NCBI RefSeq assembly: GCF_001983995.1
Contig: NZ_CP019450.1
Span: 744,001-808,000 of the forward strand
Source of the DNA: Halioglobus japonicus
Lineage (GTDB): Bacteria; Pseudomonadota; Gammaproteobacteria; Pseudomonadales; Halieaceae
Direction: 5' to 3'
DNA: 64,000 nt
Position numbers and translations under genes: made by a program
Shown here: positions 4,105-51,855 of the stretch, one piece after another
How positions within the stretch are numbered: position 1 is the first letter of the stretch
Layout: every line of letters starts with the position of its first letter
Notes under the pieces: model-generated
Databases searched by the model: none
What the model was told of the DNA's origin: nothing
Seen by the model: the letters and a program-made list of their open reading frames with translations, nothing else

Positions 4105-4134
4105 ATCGCTGGATTTCAACAAGGAAGTGAAACA

Positions 4135-32806: not shown

Positions 32807-32817
32807 CCCCCCCAATT

Positions 32818-32840
32818 GCGGGTAGGCTTTGGCTACCCGC
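32818..32840 (+). other. Hairpin after parC
   Basis: GCGGGTAG and CTACCCGC form an 8-bp perfect stem with a 7-nt loop 11 bp after the parC stop. It lacks a T tract, so any terminator role would be weak or rho-assisted. Confidence 0.5.
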
Positions 32841-32930
32841 GCCAGGGCTGGGCTGAAAGCCCTCCGCCGTCTCCACAAATCATAAGCACGACCTGATGGT
32901 GCGAAAACCCTTTCAGCCCAGCCCCGGCGC
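32839..32930. repeat. Long inverted repeat (second hairpin class)
   Basis: Arms at 32839-32859 and 32910-32930 are complementary over 21 bp with a single mismatch. They enclose a 50-nt loop starting CCCTCCGCCGTCTCCACAAA, with an inner GCAC/GTGC pair. The loop differs from the three hairpin elements described elsewhere, so it is a separate structure. It lies between convergent parC and the ytjB-like gene. No ORF is supported here. Confidence 0.75.
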
Positions 32931-32993
32931 TCGATTCCGTTATCACCAGGAGTGACAGTTTTGGATATCCCAGTTGAGAACTGAGTCGAGGTT

Positions 32994-33102
32994 TGGAAGT
33001 CGGTTGAAGCTTCCTGAAATCGTCGAGAGGCATGGATGCCGCACGCCGAAGCGCGCCATGGATGGCCTTGCAGCGGTTTCAGGAAGCTTCAACCGACTTC
33101 CA
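32994..33102 (+). repeat. Hairpin element copy 1 (conserved core, private arms)
   Basis: Two perfect 26-bp arms (32994-33019 and 33077-33102) flank a 57-nt core. The core contains GGCATGGATGCC and CCATGGATGG mini-palindromes joined by ACGCCGAAGCG. The core recurs at 49618-49675 (inverted) and 49922-49980, but the arms do not. It lies between the convergent parC and ytjB-like genes. Confidence 0.85.
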
Positions 33103-33120
33103 GACCGGATTGCAGGAGCA

Positions 33121-34370
33121 CTACAACAAGGCAGGATTGAGCAGTCGCTTCAGAATGAGTTGTAGCTGCCGCTCGAGCAGATCGTCATAAGGCCCAGCAA
33201 ACCCTTCCACCATCGTGTAGTCCATGACCTCAGTTGCCTGCTGCTGAATGCGGCCCGCAACGTCAGTATCTTCACACACCGCCGGTGACAGCAGAATTTT
33301 TGGGGCTTGCTGGCGCAGACCTGCTGCAGTTCATCCAGGGTCGATTGCATATACAGCCCCGGGTAGATGTCCTTGTGGTCGCCCACGCCCAGCTCGCTCA
33401 GGGATGCGGCGATGGAAATATTCAGGGACAGTGGCATGTGTTTTTCGAGCTCCGCGGCCACCGCGTGTATCAGCCAGGCGCAGGAGGCGGCGCGGAAAGG
33501 AGCGCTGCCCGCATTGCCCCGGCCCGAGAAATACACTGCCAGGGCAAACTGGCGGGTGACCTGGATTTCGCCGCCGTAAAAGCCTGCCGAGGCATAGACG
33601 ACCTGATGGAGGCGATCCGTATAGCGGTGCAGAGATTGTTCGTCGAGGGTATCCACATAGGCCATCAGGCTGTCCAGCTGCAGATACAACACCGCCGTAG
33701 TGCGGTAGTTCTCGTCGCTGGCCACCGGCTCGCTGTTGGTGCGCAGCAATTCCATGGGCAGGTCGTCCACCCGGCGCGCGAGGAGGTCCAGCTCATTGGT
33801 ATTGGGTGGAGTGGGGCCCTGGCCTTCCAGGGCAATCTGTTTGGACAGTGACGATACCCGGGCGCCGACACGCTTGCCCAGGTGCAGGCCAACGCCGTAT
33901 AGGGTCAGGCTCAGCAGAATGGCGAGCCCCAGCAGGCTCAGCACGAAGCGCAGGTGGGCGGCGCTGGCGGAGTCGGTGTTAACCGTAATGACTACTTCAC
34001 CGGCAATGTCGGATTCGATGCGCAGAGGTGCGCGATACTCGAACAGGTTCTGGCCGGCAGCATCGCCTGCCTGCCCGAGGGCTTTGCCCTCCACGTCGAA
34101 GATAGCGACCCGTGCGGCAGACGAGGTCTCTACGAAACGCTGCAGTGAGGCGGAGACGCTGAGCAGGTCGCCGGTTTCCAGGGAGGTGCTGATTCGGCGC
34201 GCAATCTGGTGAGCCAGGGCATTGCCGAACTCTGCCTGCTGCTGTCTCTGCAGGTGTTTGCTGGAAATGCTCCCCAGGGCGACGAGGGCAAGGCTGACCG
34301 CCAGACAGAGGCCAGCGGTAAAGGTGGCGAGCTGTTGGCCGAGGGGTGCGTTATTGAGGCGTTCTATCAC
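33121..34370 (-). CDS. YtjB/AhpA-like membrane protein, frameshifted in this sequence
   Basis: The product has an N-terminal membrane helix (ATFTAGLCLAVSLALVALG), a periplasmic region, a second helix (LRFVLSLLGLAILLSLTLYG) and a cytoplasmic domain. This layout and its position divergent from serB match the YtjB (Smp) family of unknown function. The open frame ends at 33150 with a non-family tail. One base is missing in the T run at 33297-33301; restoring it gives ILLSPAVCEDTDVAG and a C-terminus ending at TAG 33121, about 416 residues. Start uncertain: GTG at 34370 is chosen, a TTG at 34463 is possible. Confidence 0.75.
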
Positions 34371-34505
34371 GGCGTCGCTGTCTGCTAATGGTCGCGGACC
34401 AGTATAAACCAGCCCGCCCGGATGTGTCCGGGTTGTCGTGGAAGTTTTCAGTGCTGCGGGCAAACGGTTAGAATAGCGGCGCTTTCACAGACCCTGGACA
34501 GTCCC

Positions 34506-35723
34506 TTGAGCGAAATCCTGCTGATTACCATCTCCGGCGAAGATCACCCCGGCGTCACTGCTGGCGTTACTGCCATTCTGGCGCAACACCGGGTTAATAT
34601 TCTGGATATTGGCCAGGCAGTGATTCACGCCACCTTGTCCATGGGCATATTGATTGAACTTCCCGCTGGCGTTGATCGCGAGGCGGTTACCGCTGCCGTG
34701 GATGCCCAGGCTGAAGCCCAGGGCATGCGGGTGAAAGTAAGCCCTGTGGCGAGCGTGGCCTACGACGAGTGGATCCAGGCCCAGGGTAGAGCGCGCTATA
34801 TCATTACGCTGCTGGCGCGCAAGATTACTGCGGATCAATTGGCCCGAGTGACCGAGGTTGTATCGCGGCACAACCTGAATATAGACAGCATTAACCGCCT
34901 GTCCGGGCGTATTCCGCTGGGTGAGTTGCCCGCCCTGAGTAAGGCCTGTGTGGAATTCTCGGTGCGTGGTCCGCTCGCTGATTCCAGTGCTTTCCGGCGC
35001 GATTTGTTGGAGGTCGCCGGGGCGCTGGATGTCGACCTGGCGTTCCAGGAAGACAATATGTTCCGTCGCAATCGGCGCCTGGTCGCGTTTGATATGGACT
35101 CAACCCTGATCGAGGCCGAAGTGATTGACGAGCTGGCTGTTCACGCCGGTGTGGGTGATCAGGTCAGTGAAATCACTGAACGGGCGATGCGCGGTGAGCT
35201 GGATTTCTCTGAGAGTTTCCGGGCTCGGGTTGCCTTGCTCGAGGGTTTAGGCGAAGAGGCCCTCGAGCGGATTGCGGGAGAGCTGCGCATTACCGAGGGT
35301 GCCGAACACCTGATCAGCACACTGCGCAAGCTGGGCTATAAGACCGCCATTCTTTCAGGCGGCTTCACGTATTTTGCCCGTTACCTGCAGCAACGCCTCG
35401 GCATTGACTATGTGCATGCCAATGAACTGGATATCGAGAATGGTCAGGTCACCGGCAAGGTCACCGGCACAATTGTCGATGGCGAGCGCAAAGCGTTTTT
35501 ATTGCGTCAGCTGGCGGAACAGGAAGGCCTGGATTTGCAGCAGGTAATCGCGGTCGGTGATGGCGCCAACGATTTGCCCATGCTCAGTGCTGCGGGCCTG
35601 GGCATCGCATTCAGGGCCAAGCCACTGGTGAAGCAATCGGCCGAGCAATCCATTTCCACGCTTGGCCTTGACGCCATTCTCTATTTGCTGGGCTTTAGCG
35701 ATCGCTACCAGAGCGATCACTGA
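34506..35723 (+). CDS. serB: Phosphoserine phosphatase SerB (TTG start)
   Basis: The 405-residue enzyme performs the last step of serine synthesis. Two N-terminal ACT domains (about 1-180, starting LSEILLITISGEDHPGVTAG) precede the HAD phosphatase domain with the nucleophile motif FDMDSTLIEAE, LSGGFTYF and VGDGANDLPML. The two-ACT architecture is that of Pseudomonas SerB and is longer than the E. coli enzyme. TTG at 34506 fits the family N-terminus; the frame upstream is not family-like. It is divergent from the ytjB-like gene. Confidence 0.94.
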   Translation: MSEILLITISGEDHPGVTAGVTAILAQHRVNILDIGQAVIHATLSMGILIELPAGVDREAVTAAVDAQAEAQGMRVKVSPVASVAYDEWIQAQGRARYIITLLARKITADQLARVTEVVSRHNLNIDSINRLSGRIPLGELPALSKACVEFSVRGPLADSSAFRRDLLEVAGALDVDLAFQEDNMFRRNRRLVAFDMDSTLIEAEVIDELAVHAGVGDQVSEITERAMRGELDFSESFRARVALLEGLGEEALERIAGELRITEGAEHLISTLRKLGYKTAILSGGFTYFARYLQQRLGIDYVHANELDIENGQVTGKVTGTIVDGERKAFLLRQLAEQEGLDLQQVIAVGDGANDLPMLSAAGLGIAFRAKPLVKQSAEQSISTLGLDAILYLLGFSDRYQSDH

Positions 35724-35728
35724 GTCGC

Positions 35729-37543
35729 TCAGATATTACTCCACACAGAGTCGTAGGCTGAGTCCACCAGGCCGCTGGTGTCATCGGCGATGACGTCACC
35801 AAGCATGCGCACGTAGCGAAAATCAAATTGCGAGAAACTGCCTGTGGCGGCCAATTGCCGGTTGAGCTGCAGGTGCAGTTCCTCACCGGGGCGCTGCAGA
35901 GTGATCTTCTGGTTTTCCCGAAAGCTCGTGCGCGGCGTGATCAGGGTTTGCGGTTGCCCGACCAGGTTGATTTCAGGCAATAGCAGGGCGCGTTGAGGCT
36001 CAGTTTCTTCGCCAGTTTTGCTGCGGGTCACTGCGCCATAGGCTTTGACCTGTGGGCTCAGCAACTCGATGCCCATGAGGGTGCGCTTATTTTCAAGCTG
36101 GCTGATCCAGCGTATGACCGCGAGCACCCACTGGTCATGCTGACCTTCCTGGGCGGAGACCAGATCGCCCACTTTCAGCTCCGCTGGAAGTTCCTCTTGC
36201 CAATCGAGGCAATAGCCGCCGGGGCTGGCGTTGACCATCATGGGCATATACAGCGGGTAGTTGCGCTCCAGCTGCGGGTCGTCGTCGCCACTGAGGATGG
36301 CGGCGGCAGAGCGGGCGTCCAATTGCACCTGGTGGTCGAGATAGGCCTCGGCTTCGGAGTCGCTATGTTGTCGCTCGAAATCAGTCTCCGGGTTGGCCCT
36401 GCTCCAGACATCACTACCACTTTGCTCGCCAAAGGGCGTGGTCTCCCGGCGCTCGGTGGGATGGTTTAGATACTCGCTTCCATACACCGCTTCGGGAAAA
36501 CTGCGATCGCCTGCGGCGTGATAGTGGGCCGCGCTCAAGCCAATGCTGACGGCCAGTGGCCCCTTGGCCGGTTTGCGGACGAAATTGCGCACACTGACTG
36601 AGCCCAGTGCGTCGATCATGTGCGAGATTAGACCCTGGGTAAGGTTGGTGCCGTCATCGAGGGTGACGCCTGAGCGTTGACTGGATGCCTGCAGGTTTTT
36701 CATGTGCGCCACCAGCGGCGCGGTGTTGACCTTGCGCGCTGTGGCGGGGATGGTGTCGCGAAATAGTGAGGCGTAGAGCGGTGGCTGGTCGTGGTCCAGA
36801 TCGACCAGGAACAGGCCGTCCTCACCGCCAATCTCGACCAGGTCCGACCACTGCAATAGTGCCTGGTGCACAATCGCCAGATCGGCCTGGCGCAATTGAT
36901 TGGGTTTGCAGCAACCGGTAAGCATGGCCACCAGATAACACTGGCGAATACTGATCTGGGTGTCACCCGGGCCCGGCAGTGCAATCTCCGCCAGCTCCTG
37001 GCGCTCGCCGAGGGCGTACAGCTGGTGCATGGTTAGCCAGCCATGGGGCTCCATAGGTTTGTGCAGCTGGAACTCCAGCAATCTTTTCCTGCCGCAGTAC
37101 TGCAGGGCTCGTAGCAGGGCTTCGCAGACCAGCCGCGCCGGGTTGATGCCGCGGACGCTGTCGCGCTGCTGCAGTGCCTCTACAGCGGTGCAGTTATAGG
37201 CGGAAATCGAGAGGGCGTATAAGCGGTCGATCAAGGCCGCCACGCGTCTCGGTTCTTCGGGCATGACCAGCGGCTGGTTGAGAAAGCGGCGGGAGAGGCT
37301 GGTACAGGCGATTTGCAAATTGGATTGCAGTGCTTCCAGCAGGCTGAAGCGCAGCTCCGGTTGCAGCCGACAGCGGCACAGTTGTTCCAGTGCAGAGGCG
37401 AGTCTGTTGGCGACTACTTCCGGGTTGGCCACGGGCAGTTGTGCTGCCCATTGGTGTGCGCTTTCCTCCCGGGCGGCGAACACAGATAATTCTGCCAGGT
37501 CCTGCGCAGGCAGTTGCAGACGAATTGGTGTCTCGCTGGCCAT
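35729..37543 (-). CDS. Large conserved protein of unknown function, possible C-terminal PilZ-like region
   Basis: The product has 604 residues, no signal peptide and no membrane helix. The N-terminal two thirds is helix-rich with a repeated Leu/Arg/Gln pattern. The C-terminal 200 residues are beta-rich; MMVNASPGGYCLDW, LKVGDLVSAQE and LMGIELLSPQVKAY resemble parts of a PilZ-type beta barrel, but I cannot see a clear RxxxR c-di-GMP motif, so the call is tentative. ATG at 37541-37543 is preceded by AAGGAGG. It is convergent with serB, with only 5 bp between them. Confidence 0.75.
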   Translation of the reverse strand: MASETPIRLQLPAQDLAELSVFAAREESAHQWAAQLPVANPEVVANRLASALEQLCRCRLQPELRFSLLEALQSNLQIACTSLSRRFLNQPLVMPEEPRRVAALIDRLYALSISAYNCTAVEALQQRDSVRGINPARLVCEALLRALQYCGRKRLLEFQLHKPMEPHGWLTMHQLYALGERQELAEIALPGPGDTQISIRQCYLVAMLTGCCKPNQLRQADLAIVHQALLQWSDLVEIGGEDGLFLVDLDHDQPPLYASLFRDTIPATARKVNTAPLVAHMKNLQASSQRSGVTLDDGTNLTQGLISHMIDALGSVSVRNFVRKPAKGPLAVSIGLSAAHYHAAGDRSFPEAVYGSEYLNHPTERRETTPFGEQSGSDVWSRANPETDFERQHSDSEAEAYLDHQVQLDARSAAAILSGDDDPQLERNYPLYMPMMVNASPGGYCLDWQEELPAELKVGDLVSAQEGQHDQWVLAVIRWISQLENKRTLMGIELLSPQVKAYGAVTRSKTGEETEPQRALLLPEINLVGQPQTLITPRTSFRENQKITLQRPGEELHLQLNRQLAATGSFSQFDFRYVRMLGDVIADDTSGLVDSAYDSVWSNI

Positions 37544-37691
37544 AGGCCCTCCTTGCCCACTGCAGATTGCCACCTGAGTAACCATTATGGTCGTAAACCA
37601 CGGTCCTCGCCAGCTGACCGGGGATGCTCCCCAAGGGGCGCCCGTTGCGGTATTATTAGCGCCCTTTTTTTAACCGTAATGGACAAGCACC

Positions 37692-38264
37692 ATGGGGAAC
37701 TATTCCACCAACGAATTCCGCTCGGGTCTGAAGGTCATGCTCGATGGCGAACCTTGCTCTATCCTCGATAACGAGTTTGTAAAGCCCGGTAAGGGTCAGG
37801 CATTCAACCGGGTCAAGCTGCGTAACCTGAACACCGGTCGGGTCTGGGAGCGGACGTTTAAATCCGGTGAATCCCTCGAAGGCGCCGACGTGATGGACCG
37901 CACGATGGAGTATCTCTACACCGACGGCGAATTCTGGCACTTTATGGAGCCCGACACCTTTGAGCAGTTCCAGGCCGATGCCAAAGCCGTGGGTGATTCA
38001 CACCTGTGGCTGAAGGAACAGGACAAGTGTGAGGTCACTCTGTACAACGGCGCGCCGCTGTCTGTTGCTCCGCCCAACTTTGTCGAGCTGGAAATTGTTG
38101 AAACCGATCCTGGTCTCAAGGGCGACACCGCCCAGGGCGGCAATAAGCCCGCCAAACTCAGCACGGGTGCGGTGGTGAAGGTACCGCTGTTCCTCAGCGA
38201 AGGTGAGGTTGTTCGCGTGGACACCCGCACCGGTGAATACCAGGGCCGGGCTAGCAAGTCCTGA
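37692..38264 (+). CDS. efp: Elongation factor P
   Basis: The 190-residue factor relieves ribosome stalling at polyproline. It has the KOW-like domain I with the modification site Lys34 in [12 protein letters not shown], then two OB domains ending [16 protein letters not shown]. Lys34 together with the epmA gene immediately downstream indicates beta-lysylation. The epmB aminomutase gene is not adjacent. Confidence 0.97.
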
Positions 38265-38271
38265 TCTGCGC

Positions 38272-39225
38272 TTGAGCGAATCTGATGCAGCCCTGACGGA
38301 GGTCCTGCGCGCCCGGGCAGGGTTGTACCGTCAGATTCGCGAATTTTTCGAGCACCGCCAGGTACTCGAAGTGGAGACACCGCTGCTCTGTTCCAGTGGT
38401 GTGACCGACCCCTCGATAGAACCCCTTATGGTTGAGCGTGGCCAGTCGCTGAGCGCGCCGCGCTACCTGCAGACCTCACCTGAATACGCCATGAAACGCC
38501 TGCTGGCGGCGGGGAGCGGTGCGATCTTCCAGATTGCCCGGGCCTTTCGCGACGGCGAGGCGGGCTCGCGCCACAATCCCGAGTTCTCAATGTTGGAGTG
38601 GTACCGGCCCGGCATGGATCACCACCAGCTTATGGCTGAGGTGGAGGCGTTCCTGCATCACTGCCTGCCGGGTCGTGCAGCTCACTACTTCAGTTACCGG
38701 GCGTTGTTCCTGGAAACGCTGTCGCTCGACCCCTTTACCGCGACCGATGCCGAACTTGAGAGCAGGGCCAGGGAGACGCTCGACCTCGGCGATCTCAGTG
38801 GTGACCGGGATATGTGGCTGGACGTGTTAATGAGTCACCTGGTTGAACCTGATCTCGCCGATCGCGGAATGTGTTTCGTCTATGACTACCCCGCCAGCCA
38901 GGCCGCGCTGGCGCGGATTGGCCGTGTCGACAGCGTTAATGTAGGTCATCGCTTCGAGGCCTATGTCGATGGTGTAGAGCTGGCCAATGGTTACTGGGAG
39001 CTGACCGACCCTGCAGAACAGCGGCGGCGTTTTCAGGCTGACAATGCCCGGCGCAGGGGGCTGGGGCTGACTGAGCGGCCCCTCGATGAATACCTGCTGC
39101 AGGCATTGGAGCGGGGAATGCCGGCGTGTGCCGGTGTGGCTCTGGGATTGGATCGGTTGTTAATGCTCGCCACCGGCATCGATGATATTCGCCAGGTCCT
39201 GTGTTTCGACTGGCAGCGCAGTTAG
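38272..39225 (+). CDS. epmA: EF-P beta-lysine ligase EpmA (PoxA/GenX)
   Basis: The product resembles the catalytic core of class II lysyl-tRNA synthetase without the anticodon domain. It has EVETPLLCSSGVTDPSIEP, LQTSPEYAMKRLL, FQIARAFRDGEAG (motif 2), ELANGYWELTDP and GVALGLDRLLML (motif 3). It ligates R-beta-lysine to Lys34 of EF-P. The frame opens with GTG at 38203 inside efp. I prefer TTG at 38272, 8 bp after the efp stop, which gives the family-typical start and 317 residues; the start is uncertain. Confidence 0.92.
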   Translation: MSESDAALTEVLRARAGLYRQIREFFEHRQVLEVETPLLCSSGVTDPSIEPLMVERGQSLSAPRYLQTSPEYAMKRLLAAGSGAIFQIARAFRDGEAGSRHNPEFSMLEWYRPGMDHHQLMAEVEAFLHHCLPGRAAHYFSYRALFLETLSLDPFTATDAELESRARETLDLGDLSGDRDMWLDVLMSHLVEPDLADRGMCFVYDYPASQAALARIGRVDSVNVGHRFEAYVDGVELANGYWELTDPAEQRRRFQADNARRRGLGLTERPLDEYLLQALERGMPACAGVALGLDRLLMLATGIDDIRQVLCFDWQRS

Positions 39226-39229
39226 GCGT

Positions 39230-39679
39230 TCAGGGAGTACTCTCGAGTACCGCCGGTCCGTAGCCCTCTATGAATTCGCGGGGCAGGCGTCGCGGTCGGC
39301 CGGTGCTGAGCTCAATGCACGCGAAGCGCACAACGCCTCGCAGCAACGTTTGTGCGTCGCCCTTGCGCAGGATTTGAAAGTTGCGCTCCATACTCAAGCG
39401 CCCGTCCCAGGACACAATCCAGGTGCCTACCACCAGTTCATCGCCCTCCCTTGAGGCCTGTAGGTAGTCGTATTCGCCGCGGATGACGGCCATGGCACGA
39501 TCCAGCTGTTGATAGCAGGCCAGATCCAGCCCCAGCGCGGCGGAGTGTGACCAGGCCGTCTGTTCACACCACTGCACGTAGACCGCATTGTTGGTGTGCT
39601 TTAGTCCATCTATATGGTCCGGGCCGACGGTGAGTTCCAGCGTATGGGGATTGGGGTGATCCCAGGGAAAATCAGCCAT
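39230..39679 (-). CDS. Acyl-CoA thioesterase, 4HBT hotdog fold
   Basis: The 149-residue single hotdog protein resembles YbgC/4-hydroxybenzoyl-CoA thioesterases: LTVGPDHIDGLKHTNNAVYVQWCEQ contains the catalytic-helix region, and RGEYDYLQASREGDELVVGTWI the beta sheet. The usual Asp near the helix start is present in the DHIDG motif. Acyl substrate unknown. The ATG at 39677-39679 overlaps the end of the nhaC gene, so they are probably translationally coupled. Confidence 0.87.
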   Translation of the reverse strand: MADFPWDHPNPHTLELTVGPDHIDGLKHTNNAVYVQWCEQTAWSHSAALGLDLACYQQLDRAMAVIRGEYDYLQASREGDELVVGTWIVSWDGRLSMERNFQILRKGDAQTLLRGVVRFACIELSTGRPRRLPREFIEGYGPAVLESTP

Positions 39680-41159
39680 GGGCACCTTCAGGCTCGCGGA
39701 TCTCCTCATCGTAGCTTGCAGGTTTCAGGGCGAAGTGCAGGTAGCCGTAGATGATGGCGATGATGGGGCAGGCGAGATTGAAGAACGCGTAGGGTGCGTA
39801 GGTAAATGTGGCGACCCCCAAGGTGGCAGACATATAGGCGCCACAGGTATTCCAGGGGATCAGGGCCGATGTCAGCGTGGCCGAGTCTTCCAGGGTGCGG
39901 GACAGGTTCAATCGGGACAGGTTTTTGTTGGCGAACTCATCCTTGTACATGCGTCCCGGCAGGGCGACAGCGATGAACTGGTCTGCCGCGAGGATGTTGG
40001 TGCCAATACAGGTCAGCACCGTGGTGGTAATGAGCGAGCCCACACTCTTGACGCCGCGCAGGGCCAGGTCGAGCAGATAGGCGAGAATGCCGGTGCGTTC
40101 GAGAACGCCGCCGAATCCGAGGGCACTGATGATCAGCCACACCGTGTTGAGCATGCTGCTCATGCCGCCCTTGCTGAGTAGCGCGTCGAGAAACTCATTG
40201 CCGCTGGCGGACTCATACCCCTGGAAGAGCGCGATCCAGACTCCTTTGAACTGGACAAAAAATGCTGAGAGGCCCGCGGTATCGCCCGCCAGGCGCGCGA
40301 CCTGCTCCGGTTGGAATACGATGGCAAACAGCGCGCCAACCAGCGCACTGATGACCACCGCGGGGTAGGCGGGGAAGCGTTTGAACACCAGCGCCAGCAT
40401 CAGCACCAGCGGCAGGAGCAGGTGCAGGCCAATCGAAAACTGTTCGCTCAGCGCCAATTGCAGCGCGGCGATCTCTTCCGGCGTGGCGCCGCCGCTGCCA
40501 CTGCCGATTAACGCGAACAGCACCAGTGCCAGTGTGAAGGCGGGCACTGTGGTCCAAAGCATATGGCGGATATGGTCGAACAGGTCCACCCCGGTTGCCG
40601 CCGCCGCCAGGTTGGTGGTGTCCGACATGGGCGACAGTTTATCGCCGAAGTAGGCACCGGAAATAATTGCACCGGCGGTAATGGCGGGGGAGAGATCGAA
40701 GCTGCCGGCAATGCCCATCAGGCCAATGCCCAGGGTGCCGGCGACGGTCCAGGAACTGCCGATGCTGATCGCCACGATAGCGCAGATGGCCGCACTGGCG
40801 GCGTAGAACACCGACGGGTTAAGAATCTGCACACCGTAGTAAATCATCGCCGGCACAGTGCCAGACAGAATCCAGGTGCCGATCAGCATGCCTACCGACA
40901 GCAAAATCAGGGTCGGACCCAGGCCTACCCCAATGCCGTTAACAATGCCCTCCTGGGCTTCCTTCCAGCCCTGGCCGTTAAATTTGGCGACCAGCGCGGC
41001 GACGCAGGTCGCCAGCACCAGGGCGATCTGGTTGGCGCCATAGGACGAATCCGCGCCGAACAGGTAGACCGAACAGGCCAGTAATACCACCAGGAAAACA
41101 ATGGGCGTGAGGGCCATCCATGCCTTCATTTGTATGCGATCGGGGCTGCTGTCTGTCAA
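39672..41159 (-). CDS. nhaC: NhaC-type Na+/H+ antiporter
   Basis: The 495-residue membrane protein has about 11-12 predicted helices. The family region IGSSWTVAGTLGIGLMGIA, SGAYFGDKLSPMSDTTNLAAA (conserved Asp) and NILAADQFIAVALPGRM fit NhaC. It exchanges sodium for protons at the inner membrane, as expected for a marine bacterium. A TTG at 41157-41159 is taken as start; ATG at 41129 is an alternative. It overlaps the thioesterase gene. Confidence 0.93.
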   Translation of the reverse strand: MTDSSPDRIQMKAWMALTPIVFLVVLLACSVYLFGADSSYGANQIALVLATCVAALVAKFNGQGWKEAQEGIVNGIGVGLGPTLILLSVGMLIGTWILSGTVPAMIYYGVQILNPSVFYAASAAICAIVAISIGSSWTVAGTLGIGLMGIAGSFDLSPAITAGAIISGAYFGDKLSPMSDTTNLAAAATGVDLFDHIRHMLWTTVPAFTLALVLFALIGSGSGGATPEEIAALQLALSEQFSIGLHLLLPLVLMLALVFKRFPAYPAVVISALVGALFAIVFQPEQVARLAGDTAGLSAFFVQFKGVWIALFQGYESASGNEFLDALLSKGGMSSMLNTVWLIISALGFGGVLERTGILAYLLDLALRGVKSVGSLITTTVLTCIGTNILAADQFIAVALPGRMYKDEFANKNLSRLNLSRTLEDSATLTSALIPWNTCGAYMSATLGVATFTYAPYAFFNLACPIIAIIYGYLHFALKPASYDEEIREPEGAHG

Positions 41160-41302
41160 TGTGTTGTACCTGAACGGGTGAAGTAGCGCAGAATGCCCTA
41201 ATTGAGCCGGTTGGTACAGTTTGCTGACAGGGTTCTGACATTGGCGATGTGATCACGTACCATTGGCGGCTGCACCAAATGTACCGCCTTTGGAAGTCAA
41301 CT

Positions 41303-42469: not shown

Positions 42470-42477
42470 CAGCGGGT

Positions 42478-44118
42478 ATGGACGCTACTGCCCCGGTTGA
42501 ACTGGCGCCACATTACTATCGGGACAACTTCCTGCGCCTGCTGGATACGGTTGAGCGCAACTACGAGGACCTGCTCGCGCCCGCCGAGCAGGCATTTGTC
42601 AGCGCCTACCGGGCATTGGCCTTCGATGCCCAATGCCTCTATGTGCGGCTGATCTCGCGAGTTGGTCCCTGGTTCCGCGAGGAACAGCTCGATTACCCAG
42701 AGCTGAATGCGCTGCCGGCGGCAGTGGAAGCATTGCTCAGTGCAGGCCTGTTGGTCGAGACAAACGTGTTGTCGGTTGCGGAAACGGGCTCGCTGTTCTC
42801 GCGCCAGTCGCTGGCGCAAGCAATGGGGCTTGACCACAAACTGCGCAAAGCAGAATTGCTGGCGGCGCTGCCTGAAGATGAGCCTATACCGGTGGCGTTG
42901 TTCACCGCGGGTCGGGTGATTGGCCCGGTCGGGGCAGACATCGTTGAGGTGCTCTCGCTACTGTTCTTTGGCAATCGCCATCAGGGCCTGACGGATTTTG
43001 TGCTCAGTGATCTTGGGGTTGCGCGCCACTACCCGTATACCGTCGATCGCAGCCAGCGTCTGTTCTGTGACCGCGGTGCACTGGATGAATACCTCGGCTG
43101 TGCTGCCATTGCCGACGCCTGGTGGGCGTTGCGCGAGGGCGCGATCGACGCAATCGACCTGCCGTCGCTGGCCGCGCTTGCGCTGGATTTTTCACCGAGC
43201 TACTCGAGCTCGTTAAGGCGATATGCCCGGCTTTGTAACAGCCTGGCGCGCGACCTGGAACGGGCCGGCGAGGGCGAGGCGGCGCTGGCCCTATACGCAC
43301 GTAGCGATCTGCATCCTGCCAGAGAACGCAGTGCCCGTATTCACGAGCGCGCAGAGCGCTATGGGCAGGCCGCAGAAATCTGCGAGACGATTATTGAACA
43401 ACCCTGGGGTGAGGAGGAGCGCGATGCAGCGCAGCGCATTATGCCGCGTTTGCAGCGTGCCCTGACGGGGGCGAGTCAGCGCCGACCCCGCGACAATTTC
43501 GCCCGTATTGAGCTGGCGCTGACGCGCGACAACCAGAGCGTCGAGTTGCTGGCAGCCAATGCGCTGGCGGCGAATTGGCCCGATGTGTACTACGTGGAAA
43601 ACCAGCTGATGAACAGCCTGTTCGGGCTCGCATTCTGGGAGCAGATTTTCGCGCCATTACCCGGCGCATTTCATCATCCGTTCCAATCCGTGCCGGCAGA
43701 TATGTATGAGCAGGGATTTGCCGAGCGTCGCGAGGCGTTATTGGCGGCACGACTCGATGAGCTGGCCACCACGGATCTCTCGGCTGAATTGTCCGCGGCC
43801 TGGTGCCGCTATCAGGGTTATCAGTGTCGCTGGGTGAATTGGCGCTATGTCGACGAGCAGCTGATAACCCGGGCAGCAAGCATTATCCCGCGAGAGCACT
43901 TGCTGGCGATCTGGCGGCGGATGCTGTTCGATCCCGGCGAAAACCGCCGGGGCTTCCCTGATTTACTGGCATTAGGTGAGAGTCCGGGCCAGTACTGCAT
44001 GATTGAGGTAAAGGCGCCGGGGGATACGCTGCAGGATAGCCAGAAGCGTTGGCTGCGCTTTTTTGCGAGCCACGATATTCCGGCGCAGGTGGCCTGGGTG
44101 ACCTGGAACCATGATTGA
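42478..44118 (+). CDS. FAN1-like VRR-NUC nuclease
   Basis: The 546-residue product matches bacterial FAN1 homologues. The C-terminal VRR-NUC domain holds the catalytic triad in RRGFPDLLAL (Asp495) and MIEVKAPGD (Glu510, Lys512), then DSQKRWLRFF. The N-terminal part is a helical DNA-binding region, and an RSDLHPARERSARIHERAE TPR-like segment precedes the nuclease. FAN1-type enzymes cut flap structures and act on interstrand crosslinks. The 3' end overlaps the next gene, a nuclease-helicase, by 8 bp. Confidence 0.93.
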   Translation: MDATAPVELAPHYYRDNFLRLLDTVERNYEDLLAPAEQAFVSAYRALAFDAQCLYVRLISRVGPWFREEQLDYPELNALPAAVEALLSAGLLVETNVLSVAETGSLFSRQSLAQAMGLDHKLRKAELLAALPEDEPIPVALFTAGRVIGPVGADIVEVLSLLFFGNRHQGLTDFVLSDLGVARHYPYTVDRSQRLFCDRGALDEYLGCAAIADAWWALREGAIDAIDLPSLAALALDFSPSYSSSLRRYARLCNSLARDLERAGEGEAALALYARSDLHPARERSARIHERAERYGQAAEICETIIEQPWGEEERDAAQRIMPRLQRALTGASQRRPRDNFARIELALTRDNQSVELLAANALAANWPDVYYVENQLMNSLFGLAFWEQIFAPLPGAFHHPFQSVPADMYEQGFAERREALLAARLDELATTDLSAELSAAWCRYQGYQCRWVNWRYVDEQLITRAASIIPREHLLAIWRRMLFDPGENRRGFPDLLALGESPGQYCMIEVKAPGDTLQDSQKRWLRFFASHDIPAQVAWVTWNHD

Positions 44119-46384
44119 AATCGCAGTCAGCGTGCGTGACCTGGCGGCGTTTTGCCACCGGCGGGGTGATATCGATCATCGCTTTACCCCTTCACCTACA
44201 GCGGCCCAGGGTATCGAGGGTCATCAGCGAATTTACCGGCGTCGCCCGGCGTCTTATCAACCTGAATACGCCGTGGAAATGCGCGAGGCTTTCCCTGGAT
44301 TCAATCTGCTGGTGCGAGGGCGTGCCGATGGTTTTGACGCCCAGGCGGCGCAGGTGGAGGAGATCAAAACCTGCCGGGTGGATCCGGCGGACATTCCGGA
44401 GGCGGTCACCCGGTTGCATATCGCCCAGGCTACAATCTATGCGGCGTTGATTGCCCGCAGTGAGGGGCACGATAGCCTGCAGGTGCGCCTGACCTGGCTG
44501 AATATAGAGCGCGACGAGGAGACGTATGTCGATCGGGAATACAGCGCCGCCGAACTGGCGAGTTTTCTGGAAGAAACCCTGGCGGCCTTCGGCGGCTGGT
44601 TGGCAACCCTGGCCGATATTCGCCGGCAACGCGACGCCTCACTGACCAACCTGCCATTTCCCCACGGTGACTTTCGCCCCGGCCAGCGCGATATCGCTGA
44701 ATTGGTCTACAAGTGCATCGACCGCGGTGGTGAGTTAATGGTTGAGGCTCCCACGGGCATTGGCAAAACAGCGGCGGTGCTCTATCCCGCCCTGCGCGCG
44801 CTGGAGCGGGGTAAGCATGACGGCCTTATTTTTGCGACGGCACGCACGGTAGGGCGCCGCGCGGCTGAGGAGTGTCTGACTTTGATGGCAGGTGCGGGCC
44901 TGAGCATGCCGTGGCTGAGCCTGACGGCCAAGGACAGCATTTGTTTCTCGCCGGGTAAGGCATGTCATGCACAGGATTGCCCCTATGCGGAGGGGTATTA
45001 CGATCGTCTGTCCGGCGCGCTCCAGGACGCAATAGCGCGCGGCGCGCTGTCCCGGGCGGCGATTGAGGAAGTGGCCCGGGAGCACAGGGTCTGCCCCTAC
45101 CAGTTGGCGGACGATCTGTTGCCCTGGGTAGATGCGGTGATTGCCGACCTCCATTATCTCTACAGCCTCTATCCGCGCCTCGGACGACTCGCTGAGCACA
45201 GTGGCAGGCGATTCACAGTGTTGTTGGACGAGGCTCACAATTTGCCCGAGCGAGCTCGCGGTATGTATAGTGCGACGCTCTCCAAGCCCCAGCTGATGCG
45301 CGTTAAGCGTGGCGTGCCAAAGTCGCTGAAGCGTCCCTTGGAGCGGATTAATCGGCAGTTTCTCGTGCTGCAAAAAGAACCCTGGCCAGAGCCGGACTAC
45401 TACTGCCGGCCGGAGCTGTCAGACAAGTTGCAATTCGCGCTGCTGAATTTCACCGCCGCCGTGGGTGAGCAGCTCGCCGAGCAGCCGACCTTGTTTCAGC
45501 GCGAATCAGCCCTTGGTGACTTCTACTTCAATGTGCTGCATTGGCTGCGCGTGGCAGATTATTGGGGAGAGGACTTTGTGTTCGAGCTGCAGTGTGATGC
45601 CGATGGCCGCAACCTGGCGCTGGCGCTGAATTGTCTGGATGCGTCGCGCATACTCAGTGCCGGCCACGCCCGCACTCACGCGGCGGTGGCTTTCTCCGCC
45701 ACCCTCTCGCCGGCCCACTGGATGCGCCAGACTCTGGGTCTTACCGAGAATTCGGTGTGCCGGCGACTGGACTCCCCCTTTGCCAGTGAACAACTGGAGG
45801 TGCGGCTGGAGACAGCGGTGGATACCCGTTTCCGGGCCCGGGCTGACAGCCTCGATCGGCTGGTGCAGGTTCTGCAGGAATGGCTGGCCAATACCGAAGG
45901 GAACTGCATGATCTACTTTCCCTCCTATGCCTATATGCGCGATGCACTGGGCCACATCGACCTGGGTGAGCGAACCCTGTGGCAACAGGAGCCCGGACAG
46001 GACCTCACTGCCAGGGAGGAATTACTTGCAGCGTTTGTCGCCCGGCGCAATCTCGCTGCGTTCTGTATTCTCGGGGGTGCGTTCGGTGAAGGCATCGACC
46101 TGCCCGGTGACCAACTGCGGGGCGTGGCTATTGTCGGGGTAGGGTTGCCTCAGGTGGGACGTGAGCGGGAGCTGTTGCGGTCCTGGTATGAGGCCCACTA
46201 TGGCAGCGGTTTTGAGTACGCCTATCTCTATCCCGGCATGCAGAAGGTGGATCAGGCCCTTGGCCGGGTCGTGCGCACCGCCGACGATCGCGGTCACGCC
46301 CTGTTAATTGATACCCGCTATGCCTGGTCGCAGTACCGCGAGCTTTTGCCACCCTGGTGGGAGTACCGTCACCAGCCCAGCTGA
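44111..46384 (+). CDS. XPD/DinG-type helicase with N-terminal PD-(D/E)XK nuclease domain
   Basis: In this 757-residue protein residues 1-175 look like a Cas4/RecB-type nuclease: GIEGHQR (Glu36, His38), RGRADGFD (Asp73), VEEIKTC (Glu84, Lys86) and a QATIY motif (Gln106, Tyr110). A superfamily 2 helicase follows: Walker A APTGIGKT (213-220), four iron-sulphur cysteines (Cys278, Cys285, Cys290, Cys328), DEAH (373-376), and late motifs AFGEGIDLPGD and QALGRVVRT. It should unwind DNA 5' to 3' and cut it. It overlaps the FAN1-like gene by 8 bp. Confidence 0.92.
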   Translation: MIEIAVSVRDLAAFCHRRGDIDHRFTPSPTAAQGIEGHQRIYRRRPASYQPEYAVEMREAFPGFNLLVRGRADGFDAQAAQVEEIKTCRVDPADIPEAVTRLHIAQATIYAALIARSEGHDSLQVRLTWLNIERDEETYVDREYSAAELASFLEETLAAFGGWLATLADIRRQRDASLTNLPFPHGDFRPGQRDIAELVYKCIDRGGELMVEAPTGIGKTAAVLYPALRALERGKHDGLIFATARTVGRRAAEECLTLMAGAGLSMPWLSLTAKDSICFSPGKACHAQDCPYAEGYYDRLSGALQDAIARGALSRAAIEEVAREHRVCPYQLADDLLPWVDAVIADLHYLYSLYPRLGRLAEHSGRRFTVLLDEAHNLPERARGMYSATLSKPQLMRVKRGVPKSLKRPLERINRQFLVLQKEPWPEPDYYCRPELSDKLQFALLNFTAAVGEQLAEQPTLFQRESALGDFYFNVLHWLRVADYWGEDFVFELQCDADGRNLALALNCLDASRILSAGHARTHAAVAFSATLSPAHWMRQTLGLTENSVCRRLDSPFASEQLEVRLETAVDTRFRARADSLDRLVQVLQEWLANTEGNCMIYFPSYAYMRDALGHIDLGERTLWQQEPGQDLTAREELLAAFVARRNLAAFCILGGAFGEGIDLPGDQLRGVAIVGVGLPQVGRERELLRSWYEAHYGSGFEYAYLYPGMQKVDQALGRVVRTADDRGHALLIDTRYAWSQYRELLPPWWEYRHQPS

Positions 46385-46717
46385 TTGGCGCCGTTAGCCT
46401 CTCTCCAAGTATTTCTCCGGTCTATTAATTTGGGCCCGAGGTCATTGTTTGAGCGAATAGCTCGGGTAGATTGGCCACTCCCTGCGTGGCTGCGATAGGG
46501 TGCGTCTCGCCAATGGTTTAGGGCAAGTCAATTCAGGTCGTGAATAATGGTCATTATTCCGGCGGTATTTGCCCTGTGCTAGAGTGGTCGCCCCCTCTTG
46601 ATTGAGGGTGATTAAGTTGTAGGGACAAGGGCTCAAAGAGGCTCGCTCCGAAAGTGCCGTCGGCCAGATCAGGCCGCGGTGCATAAACAGAAACAGGCAA
46701 CGGGGGTAAACACCGTT
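46385..46717 (+). other. 333-bp noncoding region upstream of pntA
   Basis: This stretch holds no supported gene. It contains the 18-bp palindrome at 46542-46559 and probably the pnt promoter, though I see no clean -35/-10 pair. The frame of pntA extends 13 codons into it (GTG at 46679) without family support. Confidence 0.6.
46542..46559. promoter_or_regulatory. Palindrome upstream of pntA
   Basis: GAATAATG-GT-CATTATTC is a perfect 8-bp inverted repeat with a 2-bp centre, 158 bp before the pntA ATG. It looks like an operator for a dimeric regulator; the regulator is unknown. Confidence 0.45.
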
Positions 46718-47860
46718 ATGCGCATCGCGATACCCAGGGAAACTCAACCGGGCGAAAACCGGGTTCCCATCACGCCAGACGTGGCCAAGAAATTGGTCCG
46801 TATGGGGGCAGACCTGCACGTGGAGTCCGGAATGGGCACCACTTCAGGATTCACAGACGAGCAGTACACCGAGGTAGGGGCAAGCATTGCCGCTGACCGC
46901 AGTGAATTGTTTGCTAATGCAGACATGTTGCTGCGATTGAACAAACCCACCGCAGAAGAAATCGCGCTGATGAAGCGCGGTGCCATTCACATCAGCTACC
47001 TGGACCCCTTCAACGAGCACGCGCTTGTGAATGCGTTCAAGGACGCGGGAATAACCGCCATCTCCATGGAGATGATCCCCCGTACCACGCGCAGCCAGAA
47101 AATGGATGCCCTCAGTTCCCAGGCCAACCTGGCCGGCTATGTGATGGTCATGAAAGCCGCGGCTGCCCTGCCGCGCATTTTCCCGATGATGATGACACCG
47201 GCAGGCACCTTGAAGCCGGCCAATGTTTTTGTCATTGGCGCCGGCGTGGCGGGCCTGCAGGCCATTGCGACCGCCAAACGTCTGGGCGCCAAGGTTACTG
47301 CCTTCGACACCCGTCCCGTGGTGGCCGAGCAGGTGCAGTCCCTGGGCGCAAAATTCCTGGAGATCGACCTGGGCGAGACCGGCGAGACCGCCGGTGGCTA
47401 CGCCAAGGAACTGACCCCAGAGCAGGTGGAAATGCAGCGCCAGGCGCAGAAAGACGTGATCGCCAAGTCCGACGTGGTGATTACCACGGCCCAGGTCTTC
47501 GGTCGCAAGCCTCCGGTACTGGTCACCAAAGATATGGTCGATGGCATGATGCCCGGCTCCGTGATTGTCGACATGGCGGCGGAAACCGGCGGTAATGTCG
47601 AGGGCTCCGTGCCCGGCGAAACCGTGGATTGCGATGGCGTCACCCTTATCGGCACCGGTAACTGGGCCAGCGACGTCGCCCGGGATGCCAGCCAGATGTA
47701 CTCCTCCAACCTGTTTAACCTCGTCGAGGACAACTGGAGCGAAGAGCAGAAAGCGTTCGAGGTCGATTTCGAAGACGACATTCTGCCCGGTTGTATCATC
47801 ACCCATGGTGGTGAGATCACTAACGAGACCATTAAGAACATCATTGAAGGGGAGGGCTGA
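46718..47860 (+). CDS. pntA: NAD(P) transhydrogenase subunit alpha part 1 (domain I)
   Basis: The 380-residue soluble subunit binds NAD(H). It begins MRIAIPRETQPGENRVPITP, has the nucleotide-binding glycine motif VIGAGVAGLQAIATAKRLGA and the LIGTGNWASDVA region. The enzyme couples hydride transfer from NADH to NADP+ to proton entry. The alpha subunit is split: the membrane part is the next gene, as in Rhodospirillum and Pseudomonas. ATG at 46718 is chosen. Confidence 0.96.
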   Translation: MRIAIPRETQPGENRVPITPDVAKKLVRMGADLHVESGMGTTSGFTDEQYTEVGASIAADRSELFANADMLLRLNKPTAEEIALMKRGAIHISYLDPFNEHALVNAFKDAGITAISMEMIPRTTRSQKMDALSSQANLAGYVMVMKAAAALPRIFPMMMTPAGTLKPANVFVIGAGVAGLQAIATAKRLGAKVTAFDTRPVVAEQVQSLGAKFLEIDLGETGETAGGYAKELTPEQVEMQRQAQKDVIAKSDVVITTAQVFGRKPPVLVTKDMVDGMMPGSVIVDMAAETGGNVEGSVPGETVDCDGVTLIGTGNWASDVARDASQMYSSNLFNLVEDNWSEEQKAFEVDFEDDILPGCIITHGGEITNETIKNIIEGEG

Positions 47861-47862
47861 GC

Positions 47863-48153
47863 ATGGTTCCCGCAGAAGTATTCCTGACGTTCATCCTGTT
47901 GCTGTCTATTTTCCTGGGCTTTGAACTGATCAACAAAGTGCCGGCCACCCTGCACACACCACTCATGTCCGGCGCGAACGCGATCTCCGGCATTACCCTG
48001 GTGGGCGCGGTTGGCCTGGTAGGCGCGGTCGACGATCCTGACCTGTCCAAATGGCTTGGCGTTGCCGCCGTGGCCTTTGCCTCCATTAACGTGGTGGGCG
48101 GTTACCTGGTAACCGACCGAATGCTCGCCATGTTTAAGAAAAAGGAGGGCTAA
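47863..48153 (+). CDS. pntAB: NAD(P) transhydrogenase subunit alpha part 2 (membrane)
   Basis: The 96-residue product has three predicted helices, with the family motif FELINKVPATLHTPLMSGANAISG and LGVAAVAFASINVVGGYLVTDRML. It forms part of the proton channel with PntB. It follows pntA after 2 bp and precedes pntB by 6 bp. Confidence 0.96.
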   Translation: MVPAEVFLTFILLLSIFLGFELINKVPATLHTPLMSGANAISGITLVGAVGLVGAVDDPDLSKWLGVAAVAFASINVVGGYLVTDRMLAMFKKKEG

Positions 48154-48159
48154 GCGGTC

Positions 48160-49512
48160 ATGGAAAATGCAATCCAATTTGCCTACGTGGTATCGGCAGC
48201 GCTGTTCATCTTTGGCCTGAAGCAACTCGGCTCACCGGACACCGCCCGCCGCGGCAACATGATCTCCTCCATCGGTATGCTGGTGGCGGTTGTCGCCGCG
48301 CTGCTGTCCCAGGGCATCGACTACACCTGGATCCTGATCGGCGTTGCCATCGGTGGTGTGGTTGGCGCGCTCGCCGCACGCCTGGTTGAGATGACCTCCA
48401 TGCCGGAAATGGTCGCCCTCTTCAACGGCTCAGGCGGTATCGCCAGCCTGTTGGTCGGCGCCGCTGCGCTGGATCCCGAGAACAACGGTACCTTCACTCT
48501 GGTGACCATTGTTCTGTCCATCCTGATTGGTGGCCTGACCTTTACTGGCTCACTGGTGGCCTACGGCAAGCTGAGTGAGAAAATCTCCTCGGCCCCGCTG
48601 ATGTTTGTTGGCCAGCAGGTCGTGAACGGCGCTATCGTGGTCGGTATTCTTGGCAGTGCAGTGATGTTCTGCATGAACCCAGCCGATCCTACCTGGCTGT
48701 ATGTGGTTATCGGTCTGTCGCTGCTGTTCGGCATCATGGCGGTTATCCCCATTGGTGGTGCCGACATGCCTGTTGTGATTTCCCTGCTGAACTCCTACTC
48801 CGGCCTCGCGGCCTGTGCGGCGGGTTTCGCGGTGAACAACAACATCCTGATCGTAGCCGGCTCCCTGGTGGGCGCGGCGGGTATCATCCTGACCCAGATC
48901 ATGTGTAAGGCGATGAACCGCTCCCTCTCGAACGTGCTGTTCTCCGGCTTCGGCTCTGGCAAGCAGGACACCACCGAGGTGGAAGGTGAGATCAAGCCGA
49001 TCTCTGTCGAAGACGCTTACTACGTGCTCGAAGCTGCCTCCAGCGTGGCCATCATCCCCGGCTACGGCATGGCGGTTGCCCAGGCACAACACGTGGTGAA
49101 AGAACTGACTGAGATCATGGAAGCCAATGGCGCAGAAGTGAACTTCGGTATTCACCCTGTGGCCGGTCGTATGCCAGGACACATGAATGTGTTGCTGGCG
49201 GAAGCCGACGTTCCTTACGATCAACTGCTGGAGATGGACGACATCAACCCGCGGATGGAATCGGTCGATGTCGCCATCGTGATCGGCGCCAACGACGTGG
49301 TGAACCCGGCGGCACGCGAGAGCGAAGGCAGCCCGATTTATGGCATGCCGGTGATCAACGTGGACCAGGCCCGCACGGTCTTCGTCCTCAAGCGCTCCAT
49401 GGCCTCTGGTTTTGCCGGCATCGAGAACCCTCTGTTCTATAAGGACAATACGCGGATGCTGTTTGGCGATGCGAAAGAGTCTATCGGAGGGCTGGTTCGC
49501 GAGTTTGGTTAA
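48160..49512 (+). CDS. pntB: NAD(P) transhydrogenase subunit beta
   Basis: The 450-residue subunit has an N-terminal membrane half with about nine helices (residues 1-260) and a C-terminal NADP(H)-binding domain: VAIIPGYGMAVAQAQH, HPVAGRMPGHMNVLLAEA and VIGANDVVNPAARE. It is the last gene of the pnt operon and has a strong terminator 25 bp downstream. Confidence 0.97.
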   Translation: MENAIQFAYVVSAALFIFGLKQLGSPDTARRGNMISSIGMLVAVVAALLSQGIDYTWILIGVAIGGVVGALAARLVEMTSMPEMVALFNGSGGIASLLVGAAALDPENNGTFTLVTIVLSILIGGLTFTGSLVAYGKLSEKISSAPLMFVGQQVVNGAIVVGILGSAVMFCMNPADPTWLYVVIGLSLLFGIMAVIPIGGADMPVVISLLNSYSGLAACAAGFAVNNNILIVAGSLVGAAGIILTQIMCKAMNRSLSNVLFSGFGSGKQDTTEVEGEIKPISVEDAYYVLEAASSVAIIPGYGMAVAQAQHVVKELTEIMEANGAEVNFGIHPVAGRMPGHMNVLLAEADVPYDQLLEMDDINPRMESVDVAIVIGANDVVNPAARESEGSPIYGMPVINVDQARTVFVLKRSMASGFAGIENPLFYKDNTRMLFGDAKESIGGLVREFG

Positions 49513-49536
49513 GTTGCGAATCGCTACTCTTTGATG

Positions 49537-49568
49537 AAAACGCCGGCCTGTTGGTCGGCGTTTTTTTT
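49537..49568 (+). terminator. Terminator of the pnt operon
   Basis: AACGCCG and CGGCGTT pair around GCCTGTTGGT and are followed by a run of T (49561-49568). Confidence 0.92.
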
Positions 49569-49592
49569 GGTGGTGTTCTTTACGCGCCGGCA

Positions 49593-49699
49593 TGGAGACT
49601 GTTTAAGCCTTTTGAAACAGCTACGAGCCCATCCATGGGGTCGCTTCGGCGTCCGGCATCCCTGCCTCCCGACGATTTCAAAAGGCTAAACAGCCTCCA
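49593..49699 (-). repeat. Hairpin element copy 3 (inverted orientation)
   Basis: Arms at 49593-49617 and 49676-49699 are complementary apart from one bulged base and one mismatch. The core (49618-49675), read on the minus strand, matches the cores at 33020 and 49922: TCGTCGGGAGGCAGGGATGC, then CGGACGCCGAAGCG, then CCATGGATGG. Arm sequence is unrelated to that of the other copies. It lies between convergent pntB and the msbA-like gene. Confidence 0.83.
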
Positions 49700-49895
49700 A
49701 ACCTCGATAGTTCGTAATCTCCGTATTGGGCATCTCAGTGACTTGAGTTGCGTTAGCGCTTGGCGAGCGATCTATGACCGTACTGTCGGCGGTTAATTCG
49801 CAAATTTGGTGTAGGAGACCAGAGCCATTGTCTTTGGTTGCTCCCTTCATACCTCCTGCCTAAAAAAGCTCTGGAGATGGTGATGTGAATCGAGC

Positions 49896-50006
49896 TCTGA
49901 GGGCTGATAGTTTGGTTTGAAATCGTCGGCAGGCATGGATGGCGGACGCCGAAGCGCGCCATGGATGGCCTTGCAGCGGATTCAAACCAAGCTATCAGTT
50001 CTCAGA
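49896..50006 (+). repeat. Hairpin element copy 2
   Basis: Arms at 49896-49921 and 49981-50006 pair over all 26 positions if three G-T (G-U) pairs are allowed. The core between them is nearly identical to that of copy 1 (about 52 of 57 positions). It is in direct orientation and about 200 bp from the inverted copy 3. No ORF is supported in 49513-50094. Confidence 0.85.
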
Positions 50007-50094
50007 CCGCCCTGCACCTGAACCAACTCAAAACGAGTAAGCTGCTCGCAGGCCGCCCGGCAGCGGACCTCACCCAACCCACAGCGAATCACAA

Positions 50095-51851
<1,757 letters not shown>

Positions 51852-51855
<4 letters not shown>

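Follow-up and report, generated by a model that had tools for sequence, protein, structure and literature searches.

Small RNAs (sRNAs) that sequester CsrA, such as CsrB/CsrC and RsmX/Y/Z, are encoded by few dedicated genes. The three Alteromonas sRNAs Aln1a-c are described as arising from one 404-bp region (PMC5864184), and CsrA hairpins are described as bearing GGA and as generally paired (PMC4383904, PMC4333381). In the clan CL00106, which is common to CsrB and RsmY, Rfam also holds the family TwoAYGGAY (RF01731), typed as Cis-reg; PMC2864571 presents it as a probable RNA that is not cis-regulatory, with occurrences in human gut, gamma-Proteobacteria and Clostridiales, and PMC11701678 names it among the structures improved by R-scape. 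Searches of the open-access literature found no title or abstract that treats TwoAYGGAY as a dispersed repeat, nor was a reading as a miniature inverted-repeat transposable element (MITE) seen there. Among dispersed repeats, the repetitive extragenic palindromic (REP) sequences, the bacterial interspersed mosaic elements (BIME) and the CGTC-tagged REPs are characterised in PMC3733652 as intergenic palindromes, mostly in head-to-head dimers and many of them downstream of genes, and bacterial MITEs (ERIC, YPAL, NEMIS, RUP) as small, non-coding, dispersed and transcribed into hairpins. Here we describe an element of ~115 nt, of which three copies are found in a stretch of 64,000 nucleotides of Halioglobus japonicus (contig NZ_CP019450.1, positions 744,001 to 808,000; the window). 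It belongs to a repeat family with a strand-specific RNA structure and conserved paired GGA hairpins, which is dispersed mostly in intergenic DNA of genomes that also have csrA genes, and it is most likely, judged by structure and model matches, a divergent branch of the RNAs named TwoAYGGAY.

An earlier note on the window, made from its letters alone, had described three hairpins with a common core of ~57 nt that starts with TCGTCG and holds two CATGGATG-type palindromes flanking ACGCCGAAGCG, and had suggested that they form a family. This core was seen in the window copies, and a spaced pattern matched 20 copies in the host genome. A covariance model (R1) was built from the 13 of these that have a 57-nt core. 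In the 4.1-Mb host genome it found 34 non-overlapping places at E < 1e-4 (42 rows minus seven opposite-strand rows and one place at E = 0.1), so that the hairpins do form a family. Three of the places lie inside the window, where the note had put its copies: 32992-33104 (+) with 119 bits, 49895-50007 (+) with 106 bits and 49590-49702 (-) with 93 bits. The only further row in the window up to E = 10 was copy 1 on its opposite strand. For the counts of gene context, loops and pair types the weak place (E = 0.1) was retained, giving a set of 35 host places. Host and five congeners together have 108 places (134 rows minus 25 opposite-strand rows and one weak row of 16.6 bits).

The arms of each copy form a long RNA stem of 25-31 pairs, and RNAalifold folded the 13 copies into a single long stem, which closes a junction bearing two small hairpins, as expected from the earlier claim that each left arm pairs with its own right arm. 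Two-sided changes were found in 29 of 46 pairs, including 27 in the 32-pair long stem. Paired cells amounted to 96.5%, compared with 73.1% in shuffled alignments and 33-43% when the partners were slid, and none of 500 shuffles matched the observed pairing or covariation on any measure; the structure was derived from the tested sequences, which biases these values somewhat in its favour, but the slid controls were far lower. In 45 sequences from genus, family and order, two-sided changes were found in 35 of 39 pairs. Both alignments were hand-picked and omit copies with odd core lengths, whereas the loop counts over the 108 places given below are unselected. The pair types across the 108 places were 3008 Watson-Crick, 230 G·U, 29 A·C and 164 others in a scoring that treats G·U and A·C alike, and the host alone had 105 G·U versus 14 A·C on the core strand. 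Since upkeep of the arms at the DNA level would make G·T and A·C equally common, the excess of G·U argues that the core strand acts as RNA; as far as base pairs can reveal it, selection on this strand as RNA is shown. The ratio of G·U to A·C was 10:0 in the relative G242, 10:5 in G126 and 17:6 in G223 (genomes are cited by our numbers, the host being G000). The folds are very stable, and among the first 20 copies the core strand folded better in 16 and the opposite strand in 4.

The core contains two hairpins, each with a CANGGANG loop, an octamer that we take to be the CsrA/RsmA site consensus. All 45 hand-chosen sequences have GGA in both hairpins and vary at the N positions. The 108 places contain two octamers in 84 cases, one in 21 and none in 3, with a spacing of 23-27 nt in 76 of the 84; for the 35 host places the numbers are 22, 10 and 3. 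By these counts the palindromes look like CsrA/RsmA sites, a likeness that the earlier note had not seen. All three window copies carry two octamers. The two palindromes are identical in copies 1 and 3, as the note had it for every copy, but in copy 2 the first hairpin has CAGGGATG instead of CATGGATG. Genes for csrA were found in 36 of 38 genomes, the host with two genes included, and both misses are incomplete assemblies. The second host gene, at G000:C1:1720215-1720385, is a divergent member of the CsrA family besides the canonical one at 1897194; the congener G002 has a weaker second match to the family as well. The full copies in the window (32990-33106 on the plus, 49592-49700 on the minus and 49896-50006 on the plus strand) are composed as follows:

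32990-33019, plus strand: left arm of copy 1, 30 nt, pairing with 33077-33106 by 29 Watson-Crick pairs and one G·U
33020-33076, plus strand: core of copy 1, the junction with two small hairpins
33031-33038, plus strand: octamer of hairpin 1 of copy 1, CATGGATG (CANGGANG), assigned from its sequence and the conservation counts
33057-33064, plus strand: octamer of hairpin 2 of copy 1, CATGGATG (CANGGANG), assigned in the same way
33077-33106, plus strand: right arm of copy 1
49676-49700, minus strand: left (5') arm of copy 2, the element lying on the minus strand
49618-49675, minus strand: core of copy 2, 58 nt, octamers CAGGGATG and CATGGATG
49592-49617, minus strand: right (3') arm of copy 2
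49703-49894: spacer of the head-to-head pair of copies 2 (-) and 3 (+), 192 nt between the model ends
49896-49922, plus strand: left arm of copy 3, 27 nt
49923-49979, plus strand: core of copy 3, 57 nt, octamers CATGGATG at 49934-49941 and 49960-49967
49980-50006, plus strand: right arm of copy 3

We consider it rather probable that the element is a transcribed RNA decoy or clamp for CsrA. The core strand of each copy would give a structured RNA with a long stem in which pairing is kept but sequence is hardly constrained. This stem would open into the junction with two short hairpins showing loops of the kind bound by CsrA/RsmA, so that both faces of one CsrA dimer could be offered a rigid double site. 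Transcripts carrying the element may then act as CsrA decoys or may themselves be clamped. Instead of having promoters of their own, the copies are probably transcribed along with their neighbours, in untranslated parts of those transcripts, and the RNA may have been scattered by mobile repeats, in places MITE-borne. Transcription of the elements, binding of CsrA and its titration are steps that we infer from sequence.

Several findings weigh against a CsrA decoy. One or both octamers are missing in 24 of the 108 places and in 13 of the 35 host places; several of these misses have just one hairpin, or a loop shortened by one base (CAGGACG, CAGGATG). The G·U excess is absent in the more distant genome G276, whose arms are near-perfect and where 11 copies have 5 G·U versus 12 A·C. 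The congener with the closest ParC (94%), G002, has csrA but no copy by R1 or the model R2, and therefore the function of the element cannot be essential. Finally, no sigma-70-like signal was found upstream of the host and congener places (mean best match 7.12 of 12 upstream, 7.20 in shuffled and 7.04 in downstream sequence) and no good GacA box (at best 9 of 12, in 3 of 108 places) in a crude consensus scan. In this respect the elements are unlike genes of the csrB/rsmZ type.

The earlier note had recognised no named family, but a related one exists in Rfam. At the gathering level only a tRNA was found in the window; in a lax search (E up to 10) TwoAYGGAY was matched on the element strand in 11 of 17 loci, at 12 places. 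The best match to a host copy had 39.4 bits and thus stayed below the cut-off of 43, and the weaker matches alone would be unconvincing. Copies of congeners and kin exceed the cut-off (52.7 bits on contig 19 of G003, 47.4 bits on contig 45 of G020), and such above-cut-off matches in relatives coincide with R1 places. Strictly taken, the window copies thus fall outside RF01731, to which their sequences are linked through the copies of congeners. The element shares with that family the pair of hairpins with AYGGAY-type loops and the long external stem that closes them off; the whole model is matched, on the core strand, and Rfam's own matches are likewise multicopy and include opposite-strand neighbours in (-)/(+) order (e.g. 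G306, 460963(-)/461240(+)). Matches to microRNA families all lay below their cut-offs and were read as artefacts of long hairpins. With the CsrA-sequestering sRNAs CsrB/CsrC, RsmX/Y/Z and Aln1a-c the element has in common the GGA hairpins, paired and on an RNA strand that is deduced from the G·U bias, and the Rfam clan of TwoAYGGAY; it differs in having two sites per copy, tens of copies and no promoter or GacA/UvrY-box signal in excess of shuffled sequence. The CsrB model RF00018 had no match in the host genome.

The note had thought related cores possible in other marine gammaproteobacteria, and the family does recur. R1 matched 22 of 38 genomes. Within the family, R2 had matches in 63 of 140 genomes and 26 of 28 genera; class-wide it matched 73 of 369 genomes. 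The cut-off of RF01731 was reached in 7 of the 38 and 15 of the 369. The host is included in all these counts, and copy numbers from the class-wide searches are lower bounds, at most 10 (R2) or 7 (RF01731) candidates having been scored per genome. Each of 12 class-wide loci of best matches has two CANGGANG octamers. A core pattern of the host type gave four matches in named genomes, from which the nearest kin were possibly left out, and R2 found no element there. The dispersed-repeat nature, the frequent head-to-head pairs, the occurrence in 73 of 369 class genomes and the 234-bp MITE of one genome (see below) are new here. What had been catalogued as a minor structured RNA proves to be, across many genomes of the class, a repeat that is both abundant and dispersed, and CsrA is its clear candidate partner.

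A serious competitor, to which we give somewhat less than an even chance, is a selfish, non-autonomous mobile repeat of the MITE or REP kind, whose hairpins serve transposition or tolerance by the host and whose RNA features make insertions harmless without feeding a CsrA circuit. Its copies are dispersed, and where two of them lie within 700 bp of each other in the host or congeners (25 pairs), they are head to head (-,+) in 23 cases, point in the same direction in 2 and are never tail to tail, an arrangement like that given for REP dimers in PMC3733652 and missed by the earlier note. The spacers of 17 of these 23 measure 37-86 nt, and window copies 2 and 3 lie further apart; in one host pair (L081) the spacer holds at 4118-4287 a seemingly decayed third core. 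The parC site, where copy 1 lies, is occupied in the host (gap of 343 bp) and G004 (231 bp) and has no R1 match in six other congeners, the gaps being 34 bp in G002, 35 in G007, 32 in G006, -4 in G001, 73 in G003 and 126 in G005; G007 has no copy by R1 and one by R2. The 73-bp gap of G003 (L243) holds a lone GCAGCCATGGATGGCAGC (CATGGATG) hairpin, perhaps a remnant of the element or a small CsrA-type site. In G242 the element lies within a 234-bp unit with terminal inverted repeats of ~18 bp; of nine loci, four have a 9-bp and one an 8-bp target duplication, two have the unit without clear duplication, one has a single recognisable end and one none. The two copies of G104 lie in a common unit of ~370 bp, 96% identical, which has two additional GGA hairpins and, after the last one, a T run, and the Rfam-type loci within G306, G195 and G278 share stretches of about 250-730 bp; such differing units suggest that the RNA travels in different packages. 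The long shared stretches within genomes at the TwoAYGGAY loci L254-L266 (G306, G400, G195, G278) also match each other inversely, and the unit looks like an inverted duplication itself.

Like MITEs such as ERIC, YPAL, NEMIS and RUP, the element is small, non-coding and dispersed, and in G242 it has terminal repeats and target duplications. Around the host copies neither was recognised in a flank profile, the gaps of the empty sites not being alignable, and the element differs from those MITEs in its conserved internal double hairpin of the CsrA type. REPs, at 20-40 bp, are shorter and differ in the covarying arms and GGA loops of the element, and although CGTC stands at its core start, the stem of 8-9 bp starting with AT after CGTC, which PMC3733652 gives for CGTC-tagged REPs, was not found in the core sequences. 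A mobile repeat would moreover leave the invariant GGA next to variable N positions and the strand-specific G·U pairs unexplained. Mobilisation by a REP-associated tyrosine transposase was considered and rejected: in the family, R1 matches and Y1 transposase genes occur together in 13 genomes, the element only in 7, Y1 only in none and neither in 5 (Fisher p 0.015; 13/8/0/4 and p 0.039 when the single R2 match of G007 is counted), which is suggestive, but no model match was found in 12 loci around these genes. A single Y1 gene (in the host at G000:C1:130790-131113) is present in six element-bearing members of the genus and absent from both members without R1 elements, and no element adjoins it. 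An origin from phages or plasmids was set aside as well; blastn of copy 1, weak for variable arms, gave only partial matches to annotated phages and plasmids (E about 0.1), and one exact pattern had no match in viral contigs. More speculatively, mobility and CsrA binding may be combined in a transposable CsrA sponge, a class-wide mobile repeat with a double CsrA site whose copy number partly sets the pool of free CsrA, and thereby the processes that CsrA controls, and whose long private stems prevent recombination or annealing between copies. If CsrA does bind the element, bacterial global regulatory RNA would have mobile repeats among its sources, with copy number as a regulatory variable.

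Less likely, though conceivable, are elements of mRNA 3' ends, whose long stem would stop 3' exonucleases or serve as a substrate of RNase III, a role also ascribed to REP/BIME, with the loops being secondary. The genes next to the window copies are:

30554-32806, plus strand: topoisomerase IV subunit A gene (parC-like; Pfam PF00521), upstream of copy 1
33150-34463, minus strand: gene of 437 amino acids without Pfam family, converging on copy 1, with homologous ends in congeners
48160-49512, plus strand: NAD(P) transhydrogenase beta subunit gene (pntB-like; Pfam PF02233), upstream of the pair
50095-51855, minus strand: ABC exporter gene (Pfam PF00664 and PF00005), converging on the pair

The window copies thus lie in convergent gaps, which the earlier note had stated for all copies; a simple call of open reading frames (ORFs) puts 12 of 24 host sites (one weak) between convergent, 8 between tandem and 4 between divergent ORFs; 32 of the 48 flanking ORFs have a Pfam family, and the other 16 are less certain as genes. 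The convergent half, the stable folds and the 3' end of the element, which is often only some tens of bases away from the stop codon of the converging gene, fit a role at 3' ends, but the other half does not, some elements stand upstream of genes (e.g. at the tyrosine-recombinase site L096), and a mere 3' barrier would have no need of two conserved GGA loops. Two more inverted repeats without a T run lie between parC and copy 1, at 32817-32840 and 32846-32921 (GCGGGTAG/CTACCCGC and GGGCTGAAAG/CTTTCAGCCC).

The remaining alternative concerns the upkeep of the arms and is compatible with the other explanations. The earlier note had found no sequence in common between the arms, which is true only by eye for three copies. 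When 29 host copies were aligned at the core boundary, the arm columns at -10 to -2 had z values of 11 to 23, position -1, which adjoins the core, was always A (z 31), and mean pairwise identity at -28 to -5 was 0.37 compared with 0.27 after shuffling. The inner 20 arm positions were alike to 51% in G276 (shuffled 29%), 53% in G126 (34%), 51% in G223 (25%), 75% in G242 (28%) and 100% in the two copies of G104 (45%), and the differences among copies are matched on both sides. At one orthologous site, identified by synteny, five of 26 stem pairs differ between G005 and G004 (U·G/U-A, A-U/G-C, A-U/U-A, U-A/G·A and U·G/C-G), the G·A of G004 being a non-standard pair. From the weak shared arm of the host copies and the stages from identical to half alike elsewhere, the arms appear to descend from common arms and to drift in step. 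They are not wholly new sequence in each copy, and of the two routes proposed before, compensatory change is borne out by the covariation and joint renewal is unneeded. Conserved arms, which the note had named as speaking against its view, do occur in some relatives, where the structure stays intact. The many copies with private arms also offer a rich natural data set on the compensatory evolution of RNA stems. Template switching between arms is also known as quasi-palindrome correction. That it keeps the arm pairs perfect at the DNA level, in place of selection for RNA pairing, seems unlikely to us: it has no strand preference, and the arms of host and congeners are rich in G·U and poor in A·C; the U·G versus U-A difference at the orthologous site counts against it too. 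In G276 the stem is perfect over 32-39 bp and free of G·U in 5 of 11 copies, and template switching may help in genomes such as this one.

Chance or ordinary intrinsic terminators, which the mostly intergenic position and the stable hairpins might suggest, have practically no likelihood, given a core common to several genera, 34 places in the genome, the outcome of the shuffles and the absence of a T run directly 3' of the stem in 20 copies.

Some copies deviate from the usual core. Short variants (L092:306-392(-), L086:4290-4376(+) and L126:4016-4104(-)) have a core of 25-29 nt, whose single hairpin looks like a recombinant of the two GGA hairpins. Four others (L096:4198-4324, L099:4160-4288, L100:4011-4140 and L101:4090-4217) carry behind hairpin 1 ~15 extra nt (CGCGGCCGGCG..CCGG) that might form a third hairpin.

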